64,000 bases of DNA from a virus: positions 154,382 to 218,381 of the IMG/VR virus record IMGVR_UViG_3300031344_000002, one strand, 5' to 3'. The notes below the pieces were generated by a model, which worked only from the letters and a program-made list of their open reading frames with translations, was not told where the DNA came from and ran no database searches. Each line of letters begins with the position of its first letter. Position 1 is the stretch's first letter. Below are positions 367-64,000 of this stretch, piece by piece. Position numbers and translations under genes: made by a program.

Positions 367-780
367 ATGGAAAATAAAGAAATAAAGATTAACGTACCTG
401 ATGGGTTTGAAATTGATAAAGATAATTCTACTTTTGAATTAATTAAATTCAAACCTGTTGTAAATAAAGAAGATAATAAATCCAAAGAAATGTCGGATTT
501 ATTATTCTCAATGTTTAATAACACTGTGTGCAAAATTACTGGTGAAAAAGAAATAACTTATTATAAATTAAATGGATATAATCCAAATTCTGATGATAAT
601 GAGTGGTTATTTCAACAGGATTGGAAAAACGGTAGATTATGGGTAAAATATTCACTTATTTGGAAGGTTTTTGAAGAAAGATTTGGTCTTAACTACGACC
701 AAATCAGAGATTTCATTCAAGATTGGGTGGAAACCAACCTAAATTGGAAGGGTTTAACACCAATTCAAGGCGGATATTGA
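367..780 (+). CDS. Small phage protein whose 3' end is a CRISPR repeat
   Basis: This 137-residue protein begins MENKEIKINVPDGFEIDKDNSTFE, a start I recognise from small hypothetical proteins of Bacteroidetes phages and prophages; its function is unknown. The last part of the frame (DWVETNLNWKGLTP) is the translation of the first CRISPR repeat (726-761), and the stop TGA lies inside spacer 1. The natural C-terminus was therefore probably replaced when the array arose here. A 57-base relic of the same gene start (MENETKTNIPDGFEF) precedes the decayed array at 52.8 kb, so gene start and repeat moved or were copied together. Seen: the frame and the overlap. Inferred: that the upstream gene serves as leader. 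Confidence 0.75.
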   Translation: MENKEIKINVPDGFEIDKDNSTFELIKFKPVVNKEDNKSKEMSDLLFSMFNNTVCKITGEKEITYYKLNGYNPNSDDNEWLFQQDWKNGRLWVKYSLIWKVFEERFGLNYDQIRDFIQDWVETNLNWKGLTPIQGGY

Positions 781-959
781 CGACAGCAAAAGGTGGAAAC
801 CAACCTAAATTGGAAGGGTTTAACACCGTTGCCAGTAATGCCCTTGCGGAACTATATGGTGGAAACCAACCTAAATTGGAAGGGTTTAACACCAGAAAAG
901 GATAACTGGTTTTCCTATTGTTTGGTGGAAACCAACCTAAATTGGAAGGGTTTAACACC
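726..959 (+). CRISPR. CRISPR mini-array: 4 repeats of 36, 3 spacers of 30
   Basis: Four identical 36-base repeats (GGTGGAAACC...GGGTTTAACACC) occupy 726-761, 792-827, 858-893 and 924-959. The spacers at 762-791, 828-857 and 894-923 are all different and each exactly 30 bases. The repeat ends GGTG/CACC are complementary. The 36/30 geometry and the core TTGGAAGGG resemble type VI-B (Cas13b) direct repeats, which typically begin GTTG, end ACAAC and have a TTTTGGAGGG-like core; this is from memory, not a search. No cas gene lies in the window, so the array would need a host or distant effector. Spacers 1 and 2 are clearly GC-richer than the surroundings, as expected for foreign DNA. The array lies just after and partly inside the gene at 367-780. 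Confidence 0.93.
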
Positions 960-7056: not shown

Positions 7057-7542
7057 ATGGAAAGAATAACTGATAAATATGTATTTTTTTATAAATCAAG
7101 AATATCTAATTGGCACATGTGTCAATTTAAGTATAAAGGAATTACATTTTTTAATACCGAACAAGCATTTATGTGGGAAAAAGCAATTTTCTTTGGTGAT
7201 ATGGAAACAGCAAAGAAAATTGTTGAAACTCCAAATCCTGCTGAAAATAAAAAACTTGGTCGCATGGTTAAAAATTTTAATACGGAAAAATGGGATGATG
7301 CTTGTTTTGATTTTATGGTAGCTGTTAATTATGCTAAATTTAGTCAAAACAAATATTCAAAAGAATTGTTATTATCAACTAATGATAAAATACTAGTTGA
7401 AGCGAGTAAATTCGATAAAATATGGGGTATTGGTTTACACTGGAGTGATGATGATGTACTTGATGAAACTAAGTGGCAAGGTAAAAATTTGCTTGGAAAA
7501 GCGTTGATGGTAGTAAGAGAACAATTAAAACAAGAAAATTAA
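7057..7542 (+). CDS. NADAR-family protein (YbiA-like)
   Basis: A 161-residue protein matching the NADAR (DUF1768) family along its whole length: an SNWHMCQFKYKGITFF start, then the family Glu in NTEQAFMWEKA, NKKLGRMVKNF, KFSQN, the LLSTNDKILVEAS stretch, WGIGLHWSDDD, and WQGKNLLGKALM near the end. Family members act on N-glycosidic bonds of ribosides: YbiA works on riboflavin intermediates, and other NADAR proteins remove ADP-ribose from guanine in DNA, countering DarT-type toxins. In a phage the second role is attractive, particularly with the macro-domain protein at 37504-37986, but it is an inference. The downstream gene has its own promoter. Confidence 0.85.
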   Translation: MERITDKYVFFYKSRISNWHMCQFKYKGITFFNTEQAFMWEKAIFFGDMETAKKIVETPNPAENKKLGRMVKNFNTEKWDDACFDFMVAVNYAKFSQNKYSKELLLSTNDKILVEASKFDKIWGIGLHWSDDDVLDETKWQGKNLLGKALMVVREQLKQEN

Positions 7543-7547
7543 AATTT

Positions 7548-7574
7548 TGTAACAATTTCAATAATTATTCGTAT
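7548..7574 (+). promoter_or_regulatory. Phage-type promoter element
   Basis: TGTAACA, 13 bases, TTCGTAT, extending to TTCGTATAATTGC. It lies 25 bases before the ATG at 7600. Confidence 0.7.
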
Positions 7575-7599
7575 AATTGCAATATTAATTAAAGTAATT

Positions 7600-16620: not shown

Positions 16621-16860
16621 ATGAAAAAACAAATAACAATTGATTTGGATTTAACTGAAGAACAAATATTAGAATTTATTTCAAATGAGTCAACAAATAA
16701 TTATTCAATGTTTAAGATAGCGGATAAAGCATTGAGTGAAGTTAGTTGGCATAATAATATGCCCAAATCAAGTAAATTATACTATATCGCAATGTTACAA
16801 AAACACATCAATGCATTTTTAAAAGATATTGATTATAATAATGATTTAAATGTGTTATGA
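16621..16860 (+). CDS. Hypothetical helical protein, 79 aa
   Basis: MKKQITIDLDLTEEQILEFISNES. I chose the ATG at 16621, one base after the upstream stop; an ATG at 16609 would overlap the upstream gene and add four residues. No family recognised. Confidence 0.8.
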   Translation: MKKQITIDLDLTEEQILEFISNESTNNYSMFKIADKALSEVSWHNNMPKSSKLYYIAMLQKHINAFLKDIDYNNDLNVL

Positions 16861-16863
16861 TTT

Positions 16864-16890
16864 TGTAACATTTTTCATTAAATTTCGTAT
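16864..16890 (+). promoter_or_regulatory. Phage-type promoter element
   Basis: TGTAACA, 13 bases, TTCGTAT, directly after the upstream TGA. The downstream gene starts within 3-12 bases of the element, so its leader must be very short. Confidence 0.7.
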
Positions 16891-16892
16891 TA

Positions 16893-17510
16893 ATGCTCAT
16901 GATGATACCAAAAGAACATATTGAAAAGCAAAAGGAATTTGTAATGACTCTTCAAGATAGTAAATATCTTCATTATCGAGATATTTACAAAAATATTGAT
17001 AAATACAATTTTCAAATTTGTACTAAAGTGGATTTTAAAGCTGTAGGAAATTCTTGCGGTGATATTTTTGAAACATGGGATAAGCTAAAACAAGCAAGTA
17101 AAATCACATATGAAGCCAATACCAAATCAGGTAGTAGGTATTTTATTGATGAATACAATAATGTATATCGACTTTCAAATCATTGGGGTGCAGTTGCAAC
17201 TTGTGAATGGACACGAGAAGGTAAAGGTCAATTAAGTATGTCTATTTTTGAAACAGGTGAATGGGAAATTGGTGTTGCTAATCTTAAAGATTTTAAAATA
17301 TTTAGAAGAAAACAAGATAGAAATATAGATTTTATAATTAATCCTAAGTGGCTTAATCAAATGAAAGAAGTAATTCAACTAAAAAAGGAATTATTTAAAT
17401 TAAAATCTTTACCAGAATTTAAAGAACTTCCTGTTGAAGATAAAATATTAATTGGAACTTCTTATCATTTTTTTAATAAAGAATTGGGTGGAATTGAAAA
17501 AAGAAAATGA
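16893..17510 (+). CDS. Hypothetical protein, about 205 aa
   Basis: Reads M(LM)MIPKEHIEKQKEFVMTLQDSKY...; the ATGs at 16893, 16899 and 16902 all fit. Because a promoter ends at 16890, the later ATGs are more likely. The middle (HWGAVATCEWTREG, ETGEWEIGVANLKDFK) is beta-rich. Overlaps the next gene by four bases. Family unknown. Confidence 0.8.
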   Translation: MLMMIPKEHIEKQKEFVMTLQDSKYLHYRDIYKNIDKYNFQICTKVDFKAVGNSCGDIFETWDKLKQASKITYEANTKSGSRYFIDEYNNVYRLSNHWGAVATCEWTREGKGQLSMSIFETGEWEIGVANLKDFKIFRRKQDRNIDFIINPKWLNQMKEVIQLKKELFKLKSLPEFKELPVEDKILIGTSYHFFNKELGGIEKRK

Positions 17511-24047: not shown

Positions 24048-24074
24048 TAATTTTAATTGAAATTAGATATTTTT

Positions 24075-24101
24075 TGTAACATATTTAAATATTTTTCGTA
24101 T
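24075..24101 (+). promoter_or_regulatory. Phage-type promoter element
   Basis: TGTAACA, 13 bases, TTCGTAT; the ATG of the next gene is 39 bases further at 24141. Confidence 0.72.
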
Positions 24102-24140
24102 TATTGCATAATATTTAATTTAAAATAAAAATATATTATA

Positions 24141-39234: not shown

Positions 39235-39255
39235 TATATTATGTTTTTATTTATT

Positions 39256-39282
39256 ATACGAAAATAAAATAAATATGTTACA
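39256..39282 (-). promoter_or_regulatory. Phage-type promoter element
   Basis: On the minus strand TGTAACA, 13 bases, TTCGTAT (TTCGTATAAT). Lies 22 bases before the start at 39234 and runs straight on from the T run of a terminator. Confidence 0.75.
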
Positions 39283-39312
39283 AAAAACCCTGTATATTAT
39301 TGTACAGGGTTT
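39282..39312 (-). terminator. Intrinsic terminator of rIIB
   Basis: ACCCTGTA and TACAGGGT form the stem; on the minus strand it is followed by six T, which are also the first bases of the next promoter (TTTTTTGTAACA). Confidence 0.82.
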
Positions 39313-48474: not shown

Positions 48475-48495
48475 GGTTTTTATTTTTTATTAATT

Positions 48496-48522
48496 ATACG
48501 AAAATAAAATCAAAATGTTACA
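48496..48522 (-). promoter_or_regulatory. Phage-type promoter element
   Basis: Minus strand: TGTAACA, 13 bases, TTCGTAT(AAT); 22 bases before the start at 48474 and overlapping the end of the upstream gene by none. Confidence 0.75.
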
Positions 48523-48523
48523 A

Positions 48524-48811
48524 TCAGCTAATTCCTATTTGATTTTTTTCTTTTTTAGTCATTTTATCATATTCTGCAAGCGAATAATAATGATTACAAT
48601 GATGACATTCAATACCTTTATTTTCACATTCCCTATGCCAAAAAGAATGACAATTTTTTGTTGTATATGATTTTTCATATCTTTCTTTATGTTCAGAAAG
48701 ACTAATTAGATAATGAGTTTTTATAAATTCTTCAACCGAAATTTTATCTTCTTTGGCAAGTTTGATAATTTTATTTAAATGCTTTTTATAATAATCTTCA
48801 AAAGTTTTCAT
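48524..48811 (-). CDS. Small zinc-finger-like protein, 95 aa
   Basis: MKTFEDYYKKHLNKIIKLAKEDKISVEEFIKTHYLIS, then CHSFWHRECENKGIECHHCNHYYSL: four Cys and several His make a zinc-binding end. Confidence 0.78.
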   Translation of the reverse strand: MKTFEDYYKKHLNKIIKLAKEDKISVEEFIKTHYLISLSEHKERYEKSYTTKNCHSFWHRECENKGIECHHCNHYYSLAEYDKMTKKEKNQIGIS

Positions 48812-52817: not shown

Positions 52818-52874
52818 ATGGAAAATGAAACAAAAACTAACATACCTGATGGGTTTGAATTTGTTAACCCATGA
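52818..52874 (+). pseudogene. Relic of the CRISPR-leader gene (MEN...PDGFEF)
   Basis: MENETKTNIPDGFEFVNP-stop repeats the first 15 residues of the gene at 367-780 (MENKEIKINVPDGFEI) and, at DNA level, keeps ATGGAAAATGAAACAAA... and CATACCTGATGGGTTTGAA. The rest of that gene is gone, and the stop is followed after three bases by a decayed CRISPR repeat. Confidence 0.7.
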
Positions 52875-52877
52875 CCC

Positions 52878-52957
52878 TGTGGAAACTAATCTAAATTTGA
52901 AGTGTTTAATACCACAAATTTGTTCGGTTATACTTCCTAAATCCGTGGAACTAAAAT
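52878..52957 (+). CRISPR. Decayed CRISPR array: one full degenerate and one truncated repeat
   Basis: 52878-52913 matches the 36-base repeat of the array at 726-959 at 30 of 36 positions (TGTGGAAACT...AGTGTTTAATACC). The next repeat would begin after a 30-base spacer at 52944, and CGTGGAACTAAAAT is found exactly there, a repeat start with an internal deletion. The 36/30 periodicity is therefore kept. Probably no longer active; it shows that the array and leader were duplicated or acquired twice. Confidence 0.7.
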
Positions 52958-52976
52958 AATTAAAAATAAATTATAT

Positions 52977-56626: not shown

Positions 56627-56646
56627 AATTTTTTGTTTTCTTTATT

Positions 56647-56673
56647 ATACGAATTTGAATTAAAAATGTTACA
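56647..56673 (-). promoter_or_regulatory. Phage-type promoter element
   Basis: Minus strand: TGTAACA, 13 bases, TTCGTAT, 21 bases before the start at 56626, just after the stop of the upstream gene. Confidence 0.75.
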
Positions 56674-56675
56674 AA

Positions 56676-58731: not shown

Positions 58732-58812
58732 TGCTAAATATATTTAATTTTGATTTAATTCTTTATATACACTGGTATTGGCGTATGTTTTTCACTTTTT
58801 GTTTTATTTATT

Positions 58813-58839
58813 ATACGAATTTTAATGAAAAATGTTGCA
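58813..58839 (-). promoter_or_regulatory. Phage-type promoter element
   Basis: Minus strand: TGCAACA, 13 bases, TTCGTAT. The leader to 58731 is about 80 bases and holds no clear gene. Confidence 0.7.
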
Positions 58840-58843
58840 AAAA

Positions 58844-60563: not shown

Positions 60564-61802
60564 ATGATTAAAGCATATAAATATCGAATCATGCCAACTA
60601 AGGCACAACAAACACTAATCAATAAACATATTGGTAGTTGTCGATTTGTATATAATCTTGCTTTAGAAACCAAACAAATTGCTTATGCGGGTAATAAAAT
60701 TAATTTATCTTGTTTTGACCTAATTAAACAACTTCCTGCTTTAAAAAAAGAATGTGAATGGTTAAAAGAAATTAATGCACAATCATTGCAACAATCAATA
60801 ACACATTTAGATAATGCTTTTACTCGATTCTTCAAAGGACAATCAGATTTTCCTAATTTTAAAAAGAAATGTGCTAAACAATCATTTAATATACCACAAA
60901 GTGTAATTCTTGATTTTGATAATAATAAACTTATCATACCCAAATTTAGAAAAGGAATTAAAATAATTTTACATAGAACTTTTAAAGGTACTATCAGACA
61001 AGCAACTATAAGCAAAACTCCAACAGGTAAATATTTTGTAAGTATATTAGTTGAAAATAATGTTGTGATACCAAATAAAGTAAATATTGAAAGTAATAAT
61101 AGTATTGGTATTGATTTAGGTCTTAAATCATTCTTAATAACTTCTGAAGGTGAGACATTTAATAATCCCAAATATTTAAGAAAATCACAATCTAAATTAA
61201 AATATATACAAAGTAAATATTCAAAATATAAAGGCAAAAAAACAAAACATAAATTAGCTCTTTTGCATGAAAGTGTTGCTAATCAAAGAAAAGATTTTTT
61301 AAATAAAATATCAATTAAACTTATTAGTGAGAACCAAACAATATGTTTAGAAGACTTGAATATTAAAGGTATGTCAGCAAGATGTAAACCAAAACAAGAC
61401 GAAAATGGTAGATATTTACCTAACAGTCAAAGTGCAAAATCAGGACTTAATAAGTCTATAACTGATGCTGGTTGGGGTATGTTTGTTGATATGCTTAAAT
61501 ATAAAGCAGAATGGCAAGGTAAAAACATATTACAAATTGGTAGATTTGAACCATCAAGTAAAACTTGTAATGTTTGTGGCAATATTAATAAAGAGTTAAC
61601 TCTTGATAATAGAGTTTGGACTTGTAGTAATTGTAATACTGTTCTTGATAGAGATGTTAATGCAGCAATTAATATTAAAAATTTTGCTTTAAGAAATTAC
61701 ATTAAATTGTGTAAGGAACTTACACTTGAAAATCATAGCGAACTGCCTACATTAGTGGGAGTGATGACCTATGAAGCCAACAAGTCTTTAGCTTGTAGGT
61801 AG
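60564..61802 (+). CDS. tnpB: TnpB RNA-guided nuclease (IS200/IS605-type)
   Basis: A complete 412-residue TnpB. The start MIKAYKYRIMPTKAQ and the HTH-like lead are standard. The RuvC residues are visible: Asp184 in IGIDLGLKSF, Glu263 in CLEDLNIKGM and Asp364 in LDRDVNAAIN. The zinc ribbon is CNVCG near 335 and CSNC near 354. TnpB is guided by an omega RNA made from the element's right end, overlapping the 3' end of this gene; the conserved end AGTGATGAC...GAAGC, a hairpin and GTAGTTCACTT lie at 61760-61810. No TnpA transposase is nearby, so it is an IS1341-like solo element or a domesticated gene. AGTATTTATAT precedes the start. Confidence 0.93.
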   Translation: MIKAYKYRIMPTKAQQTLINKHIGSCRFVYNLALETKQIAYAGNKINLSCFDLIKQLPALKKECEWLKEINAQSLQQSITHLDNAFTRFFKGQSDFPNFKKKCAKQSFNIPQSVILDFDNNKLIIPKFRKGIKIILHRTFKGTIRQATISKTPTGKYFVSILVENNVVIPNKVNIESNNSIGIDLGLKSFLITSEGETFNNPKYLRKSQSKLKYIQSKYSKYKGKKTKHKLALLHESVANQRKDFLNKISIKLISENQTICLEDLNIKGMSARCKPKQDENGRYLPNSQSAKSGLNKSITDAGWGMFVDMLKYKAEWQGKNILQIGRFEPSSKTCNVCGNINKELTLDNRVWTCSNCNTVLDRDVNAAINIKNFALRNYIKLCKELTLENHSELPTLVGVMTYEANKSLACR

Positions 61803-62703: not shown

Positions 62704-64000
62704 TTAATTTCTACTATTCCAAAAATAATCCAATTCTTTTGGTATTTCATTTGGTCTATGATATTTAGCTGCTTCTATACAATCATTAAAACTACTGTCA
62801 GTTGGTATTAAATAATTTTGTCCAGTTGAAGGACATGTCATCTTTAACCAAGCTAATGCTGCAGGACTATTACCATTTAAATCCTCTTCTTCATTAAATA
62901 CTTCTTTAGTCTTATATAATATAAATTCTTCATCACCATGTGCATGTTTAATAGTTTTCCTATCTACTTCAACAGCATCAAGAAATTTCATCATTTCTCC
63001 CTCACCTTTGCTTTCAATTATTTCATAAATACCACCCCTAACGTCTTCATTGGTTTCATTTATAAAATCTGTTTTAATTAATGAATTGTTATTTGCTTTT
63101 TCAAATATCAATTTCGGCATTTGTCTTCCATGAATATAATAACAATCAAACTTTGTTTCTTCAATTGTACATCCCCATTCAACAGCTAAACCATTTGTAT
63201 TATGTAAATTATTGTTATTATCTCTATATATTTTCTTTGGATATTTTGAAACAACACATAATAATTCAGAAAAAATTGCTGAATACACACCAGAATCTAA
63301 ATATAAATCATTCCAAGAATTTAATGTAATTCCAATTTCTCCACAATCAATTTTAAATTCATCTTTAATAAATTTCCACCAAGCCAATGAAACATTAGAA
63401 TAAACATTTGCAGTAAATAAATATGAATTATTATAATTCTTTAGTGTATTGTTTAGTGTATTCTTTAGTGTATTGCGTAGTGTATTGCCTAGTGTATTGC
63501 CTAGTGTATTGCTTAGTGTATTGCGTAGTGTATTGTGTAGTGTATTGTCTAGTGTATTGTCTAGTGTATTGTCTAGTGTATTGCGTAGTGTATTGTATAG
63601 TGTATTGCGTAGTGTATTGAGTAGTGTATTGTATAGTGTATTGAGTAGTGTATTGTATAGTGTATTGCCTAGTGTATTGCCTAGTGTATTGTCTAGTGTA
63701 TTGAGTAGTGTATTGTCTAGTGTATTGCCTAGTGTATTGCCTAGTGTATTGTCTAGTGTATTGTGTAGTGTATTGTCTAGTGTATTGTCTAGTGTATTGA
63801 GTAGTGTATTGTATAGTGTATTGTCTAGTGTATTGAGTAGTGTATTGCGTAGTGTATTGTATAGTGTATTGTCTAGTGTATTGAGTAGTGTATTGTATAG
63901 TGTATTGAGTAGTGTATTGTATAGTGTATTGCCTAGTGTATTGCCTAGTGTATTGTCTAGTGTATTGAGTAGTGTATTGTCTAGTGTATTGCCTAGTGTA
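62704..64000 (-). CDS. Large protein with NTLx repeats and a DUF6745-like domain, partial
   Basis: The frame is open on the minus strand from the window edge (64000) to the stop at 62704, so at least 432 residues are visible and the start lies outside. Upstream of about 63440 it is a tandem tetrapeptide repeat N-T-L-x (x = G, D, R, Y, L, H, S, N or K), about 46 copies. Then comes NYNNSYLFTANVYSNVSLAWWKFIKDEF and a globular part: LHNTNGLAVEWGCTIEETKFDCYYIHG, VRGGIYEIIE, FLDAVEVDRKTIKHAHGDEEFILYK, WLKMTCPSTGQNYLIPTDSSFNDCIEAAKYHRPNEIP. This order is that of DUF6745-like domains, which often follow such short repeats. Function unknown. Confidence 0.85.
   Translation of the reverse strand, partial: TLGNTLDNTLLNTLDNTLGNTLGNTLYNTLLNTLYNTLLNTLDNTLYNTLRNTLLNTLDNTLYNTLLNTLDNTLDNTLHNTLDNTLGNTLGNTLDNTLLNTLDNTLGNTLGNTLYNTLLNTLYNTLLNTLRNTLYNTLRNTLDNTLDNTLDNTLHNTLRNTLSNTLGNTLGNTLRNTLKNTLNNTLKNYNNSYLFTANVYSNVSLAWWKFIKDEFKIDCGEIGITLNSWNDLYLDSGVYSAIFSELLCVVSKYPKKIYRDNNNNLHNTNGLAVEWGCTIEETKFDCYYIHGRQMPKLIFEKANNNSLIKTDFINETNEDVRGGIYEIIESKGEGEMMKFLDAVEVDRKTIKHAHGDEEFILYKTKEVFNEEEDLNGNSPAALAWLKMTCPSTGQNYLIPTDSSFNDCIEAAKYHRPNEIPKELDYFWNSRN
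63443..64000. repeat. 12-base tandem repeat, about 46 copies, open to the window edge
   Basis: The unit TAGTGTATTGnn repeats without a gap; only the last two bases (plus rarely the base before) vary. On the minus strand each unit codes for Asn-Thr-Leu and one variable residue. All variants seen keep the frame open and none makes a stop. Confidence 0.95.

Follow-up and report, generated by a model that had tools for sequence, protein, structure and literature searches.

A probable dead copy of a Cas-less, gene-anchored mini-CRISPR cassette in a phage genome

What is a single imperfect CRISPR-like repeat, preceded by the start of a gene, doing on its own in a phage genome? The repeat lies at 52.8 kb of a 64,000-nucleotide stretch of DNA (hereafter the window), which covers positions 154382-218381 of G000, a 218381-base IMG/VR virus record. 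A sequence-only reading had taken it for a second, decayed CRISPR array with the same leader gene as the array at the beginning of the window. We found that the site is best read as a dead copy of a phage gene-array cassette, and the features of this relic (cassette B) and of the intact cassettes A, C, and D in the same record are collected in Table 1.

Table 1. Features of the relic and the intact cassettes in record G000 (window coordinates unless G000 is given)
Feature	Position	Strand	Details and evidence
Cassette B (relic), gene start	52818..52874	+	ORF MENETKTNIPDGFEFVNP and stop, 18 codons; alignment with starts of cassettes A and C
Cassette B, decayed 36-nt repeat	52878..52913	+	TGTGGAAACTAATCTAAATTTGAAGTGTTTAATACC, reads VETNLNLKCLIP; own-genome BLAST, shuffle test, predicted fold lost
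Cassette B, relic spacer	52914..52943	+	30 nt, ACAAATTTGTTCGGTTATACTTCCTAAATC; position and length in register with intact arrays
Cassette B, truncated second repeat, array end	52944..52959	+	CGTGGAACTAAAATAA; sequence, relatives also end in truncated repeats
Cassette A, whole	367-959		4 repeats
Cassette A, gene	367..780	+	137 aa; C-terminus VETNLNWKGLTP encoded by repeat 1
Cassette A, array	726..959	+	Repeats 726-761, 792-827, 858-893, 924-959; spacers 762-791, 828-857, 894-923
Cassette D	G000 about 153337-154056		6 repeats; one gene upstream of A
Cassette C	G000 about 3653-2898	-	6 repeats

To the first array repeat of the window (the A/D type), the relic repeat is identical at 30 of 36 positions, versus a maximum of 24/36 across 100 dinucleotide shuffles of the window; the second-best plus-strand site in the window for the array repeat reached 20/36. 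The relic repeat was closest to the repeats of cassette C (32/36), with which it has two diagnostic Ts in common. We performed BLAST of the site against its own genome, and the relic gene start matched two other loci (E value 1e-12, 80% identity) while the relic repeat gave an E value of about 1e-8. Beginning 30 nt past the relic repeat, the sequence from 52944 onward has the register of a repeat start with one base deleted. The decayed repeat, the gene start before it, and the truncated repeat start after it, all proposed from the letters of the sequence, were thus borne out.

What survives is one repeat, one spacer, and one truncated repeat, preceded by approximately 46 nt from the start of the gene. 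About 300 nt of the intact gene are gone between PDGFE and the repeat, and the deletion takes in the stretch directly before the array, in which A, C, and D are almost identical. The proposed relic of the preceding gene therefore holds for the gene start, but the array-adjacent 3′ part of the gene has been deleted. The relic repeat differs from the intact repeats at both ends and at non-synonymous sites; its changes TGG to TTG, GGT to TGT, and ACA to ATA are all non-synonymous, so coding constraint has been lost. Its predicted fold is lost as well (−1.8 kcal/mol, z about +0.6, versus −10.9 kcal/mol, z about −3.4, for the intact A/D repeat). The internal deletion, the repeat changes, and the loss of the fold agree with the claim that this copy is decayed. 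The truncated second repeat, which had been read as part of that decay, is present, but arrays in the relatives L127, L129, and L132 normally finish with a repeat of this kind, and it is not by itself a sign of decay. At this site, a deletion of approximately 300 nt would have taken the gene body and the array-adjacent sequence, and the repeat would have drifted afterwards. The relic had no match in Rfam, and a match to its spacer, which the sequence-only reading had suggested looking for, did not turn up in the collections searched. Among 44 loci related to the gene downstream of the relic, none had such a cassette.

Two readings of the site would remove it from the cassettes altogether or make it a working element. 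Chance similarity in AT-rich sequence would be easiest to picture in a genome such as this one, which has 26% G+C, and in a window with many weak repeats; it is refuted by the margin of the repeat match over the best shuffle together with the independent gene-start match and the in-register repeat start, and we consider its probability negligible. The single repeat could instead be a functional solitary repeat unit, comparable to the RNA anti-CRISPRs (Racrs) of other phages, given that one near-complete repeat is kept just 3′ of a gene and may be transcribed. The loss of the predicted fold, the changes at both repeat ends and at non-synonymous sites, and the presence of a truncated second repeat all speak against such a unit, and we regard it as very improbable compared with a dead copy of a cassette.

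We performed a pattern search across the whole of record G000 and found 17 repeats at four places. The supposed second array is actually the fourth cassette in this 218-kb record. The record holds three intact cassettes and the relic, on both strands and at distant loci of one genome, and this agrees with the earlier proposal that leader gene and array form a unit present in multiple copies. As for independent mobility of the cassette, the copies would be explained equally well by duplication or by shuffling within phage genomes. The relic is informative mainly because it indicates that, within one genome, cassettes both multiply and die. The spacers of A, C, and D are 30-31 nt in length and all unique. 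In metagenome 3300028653, two contigs carried stretches 99.9-100% identical to this phage, with an identical array C; this is the only strain copy of the G000 cassettes.

The window holds other recurring sequences. An element of approximately 46 nt (TTGTAACA...TTCGTATAAT) occurs in more than a dozen copies in both orientations, for example at 39239-39284, 48479-48524, 56630-56675, and 58796-58841, and on the other strand at 7539-7580, 16855-16896, and 24066-24107; it is possibly a class of phage promoter. A tandem repeat with a 12-nt period occupies 63322-64000 and reaches the end of the record, and the contig end may therefore be an assembly break within the repeat.

In the intact cassettes, the first repeat is also the coding end of the gene. 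The genes of A, C, and D (135-166 aa) end in DWVETNLNWKGLTP plus a short tail, and this motif is encoded exactly by the first repeat; the stop codon lies inside spacer 1 in A and D and just after spacer 2, at the start of repeat 3, in C. Repeat 1 falls inside the ORF in all intact cassettes that we identified (G000, L082-L084, L126-L130, L132, and L134-L136), whose genes are about 98-166 aa with a C-terminal motif of [WL]xExxLNWKGLTP or LEExYNLKGVTP. Among the first repeats of A, C, D, and the two L084 cassettes, all codon differences were synonymous (0 non-synonymous), and codon differences in the gene bodies of the same cassettes were mostly non-synonymous. Downstream repeats follow the version of their own gene's repeat 1, with the exception of one cassette C repeat of the A/D type. 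Searches of the cassette gene against Pfam and PHROG yielded no informative match, with only weak sub-threshold ones (e.g., Ntox23), and an AF2 model of the cassette A protein (pLDDT 66.6) yielded no usable fold match. A frameshifted or unannotated start in the crAss-like phage cr116_1 (NC_055882, 9319-9416) resembles the N-terminus of the cassette gene (67.6% over 33 aa). Given this likeness, the start of PDGFE type may represent a more general N-terminal motif that is independent of arrays.

We then consider how widely the cassette occurs. We scanned viral contigs with degenerate codons for the C-terminal motif, without requiring an array, and obtained L082, L083, L084, and the known strain. 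Relatives that keep the gene start and lack the repeats would have spoken against the sequence-only reading; all four phages from this motif-only scan carry arrays (4/4). When we searched for two repeat halves separated by the array spacing, we also recovered L126, L127/L130 (which are identical), L128, L129, L132, L134, L135, and L136, and in these real cases the first repeat again supplies the C-terminus codons of a related small gene. As had been expected of a family of cassettes at variable places, the IMG/VR scans together placed the gene-array architecture in at least 11 further distinct phage records, at different loci and with diverged genes and repeats. Two records carry two cassettes, among them L084 (364.7 kb). 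At positions 2008-2945 of L127, two cassettes stand in direct tandem, and the truncated last repeat of the first array enters the start region of the second gene. Near-identical direct repeats with unique spacers were found in the three intact G000 arrays and in the 11 further records; arrays of the family have 2-6 repeats and about 30-nt spacers, and their repeat sequences include GGTGGAAACCAACCTAAATTGGAAGGGTTTAACACC and GTTGGAAGAGACCTATAATTTGAAGGGTCTAACACC. Two other results of the spacing scan (L131 and L133) were unrelated ordinary coding repeats, and seven extra viral matches from a second, relaxed motif scan were judged to be chance. The relatives are all uncultured contigs. The repeat itself served as the template of the spacing scan, and its encoded sequence as that of the motif scans; gene copies that lack arrays or have a different C-terminus are therefore under-sampled, and the size of the family is a lower bound.

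Next, we characterized the spacers. Five related phages (L126, L128, L134, L135, and L136) share the same gene, locus, and trailer, with roughly 86-98% identity over much of the flanks (L136 being more divergent), and carry 1-3 spacers each with none in common. Wholly different spacers at a shared locus show that the arrays turn over. Spacers of the family measure 29-32 nt, except for two in L132 that are shorter. A secure source could be assigned to 1 of 42 spacers, and this source is a host gene and not a phage: read antisense, spacer C1 encodes PEGEYLKGLV, the conserved 3′ end of an RlmI-like 23S rRNA methyltransferase gene of Bacteroidota, with matches of 26/29 to 26/27 in six to seven Bacteroidota genomes. 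A crRNA transcribed in the direction of the cassette gene would pair with the mRNA of this methyltransferase, which hints that the guides may act on the host and not on rival phages only. Spacer 2 of L082 is imperfectly antisense to an ORF on its own contig (about 26/30). We found no convincing spacer match in cultured phages, where matches were weak, or in 42 viral records, and single-genome matches for D1, D3, C4, E1, H1, and H2 look like chance. Stops in the frame of the repeat occur in 13 of 42 spacers, with 13 and 17 in the other two frames; counts are alike in all three, and selection for reading through the spacers was not apparent.

To which CRISPR type might these arrays belong? Cas13b-associated repeats of Bacteroidota (L092, L094, L095, and L099) are 35-36 nt in length, with a period of 65-66 nt in three, which the phage repeats share, and the phage arrays combine a 36-nt repeat with an approximately 30-nt spacer, as in type VI-B. 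The phage repeats resemble these repeats with z scores of 4-6, as measured against shuffled sequences, and except in L132 the sense orientation gave the closer likeness. The A/D repeat is predicted to fold like Cas13b-associated repeats, the repeats of L127, L129, and L132 are predicted to fold poorly, and both pairing and covariation of the hairpin across the family were at shuffle level. The leader-repeat hairpin of type VI-B was absent from the intact cassettes (0.13-0.66 of shuffled leaders reached the observed value). We found no Cas13b in G000, G001, or G002, and ten large ORFs tested gave no convincing cas match except TnpB, in a record that is linear and may be a fragment. A search of 396 Bacteroidota genomes, which may not include the host of the phage, found one unrelated coding repeat and no host array with matching repeats. 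A pattern scan of genome contigs for the repeat gave two matches that we judged to be chance, of which the Bacteroidales one lies in a panC-like gene without an array. With neither a phage Cas13b, a host array, covariation, nor a leader-repeat hairpin, type VI-B is our best guess from repeat sequence and spacing and does not amount to membership.

Several nucleases were recorded in the course of these searches. The phage encodes a TnpB/IS605 OrfB-like protein of 412 aa (window 60564-61799), a member of a Cas12f-related nuclease family. Full-length Cas13b is present in the Bacteroidota genomes G003 (L092), G035 (L094), G233 (L095), G362 (L093 and L099), and G572 (L122), with an array on the same contig stretch in four and none found beside the gene in G572. 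In G076 (L125/L097), a 1126-aa ORF that matches Cas13b only weakly lies close to an array of about 32 repeats (GCTGTAGTTACTCTATAAATCAAGAGCATTCCCAGC) and is possibly a distant Cas13.

Taken as a whole, the cassettes are, in our judgment, rather likely to be Cas-less phage mini-CRISPR arrays that are anchored on a coding gene and probably use Cas13b-type machinery of the host, with the site at 52.8 kb as a dead copy. The array would be transcribed together with the gene, host adaptation proteins would insert spacers beside the gene's 3′ end and copy the repeat as they do so, and a Cas13b-type effector of the host would use the resulting crRNAs against competitor or host transcripts. There is a precedent for borrowed adaptation, as type VI-B arrays of F. 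columnare use the Cas1 of a II-C system in trans (PMC8092290). A more specific and more tentative proposal, for which we hold something short of even confidence, is that in Bacteroidota phages the conserved small gene serves as leader and first repeat, and that the host adaptation machinery writes spacers into the 3′ end of a translated gene. If this is true, one 36-nt stretch would experience selection on protein and on RNA simultaneously, and the tail of the protein would be altered with every acquisition.

The main rival to a guide-holding cassette is an RNA anti-CRISPR decoy, in which the array floods the Cas13b of the host with crRNAs carrying irrelevant guides and displaces the anti-phage crRNAs, so that spacer content matters little. 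Most spacers lack a phage target in our searches, an over-expressed extra crRNA cuts phage defence by Cas13b about 1000-fold (PMC13187072), and Racrs occur widely among phages (PMC10651486). A Racr, however, is typically a solitary repeat, whereas the arrays here have up to 6, and spacer turnover at constant length, together with the exact antisense encoding of a conserved host peptide by C1, argues for the capture of meaningful sequence; we consider a decoy role unlikely. The cassette might also not be CRISPR at all but a protein tail of 12-aa repeats and approximately 10-aa variable linkers, diversified by recombination. The peptide encoded by the repeat is indeed conserved, a single ORF extends through several repeats in L136 and in L132, and amino acids are better conserved than the RNA fold. 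Such a tail is nevertheless difficult to reconcile with a spacing of 65-68 nt in most arrays, which is often out of frame, with the stops in the repeat's frame, or with the origin of C1 from the rRNA methyltransferase gene of a host in antisense, and it seems to us distinctly improbable. We therefore retain the gene-anchored mini-array as the preferred reading.

Virus-borne mini-arrays are already known (PMC6858448, PMC7162821, PMC11656645), and in the literature that we searched we found no account of a conserved phage gene whose coding end doubles as a first repeat. The cassette appears to let phages carry CRISPR guides in the absence of Cas genes, in a manner that has received little notice. 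The dual-coded repeat raises the question of whether host machinery inserts spacers into a phage coding gene and host Cas13 uses them. A close parallel may be drawn with SPV1 and SPV2 of Saccharolobus, which also carry viral Cas-less arrays with leader-like upstream sequence and spacers that differ at the same position between related viruses (PMC6858448). The SPV arrays are intergenic, with 1-2 spacers and host-like repeats (PMC6858448); in the phage cassettes, repeat 1 forms the 3′ end of a coding gene, as many as 5 spacers are present, and our searches found no host repeat. Compact arrays of huge phages, with a median of six repeats, likewise come without interference and adaptation genes, use of host Cas proteins was proposed there, and some of their spacers are directed against host genes (PMC7162821). 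The portions of that report considered here note no gene-anchored first repeat (PMC7162821), and the cassette repeats differ in resembling those of type VI-B.

The arrays of type VI-B Cas13b systems in Bacteroidota have 36-nt repeats, approximately 30-nt spacers, and a similar sequence (PMC8092290, PMC13187072; L092, L094, L095, and L099), and the VI-B locus of F. columnare has no adaptation genes of its own (PMC8092290, PMC13187072). Unlike these arrays, those of the phage come without cas13b and without a leader-repeat hairpin, and the repeat hairpin is not conserved across the phage family. Finally, RNA anti-CRISPRs and solitary repeat units are also phage copies of CRISPR repeats without cas genes (PMC10651486). 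Unlike the cassettes, they are solitary, and they were found for every type except VI (PMC10651486). The SRUFinder search behind that survey masked predicted ORFs (PMC10651486), and a repeat inside a gene would thus be skipped. We suggest that, where surveys mask ORFs in this manner, phage-borne CRISPR guides, and type VI-like ones especially, are undercounted.
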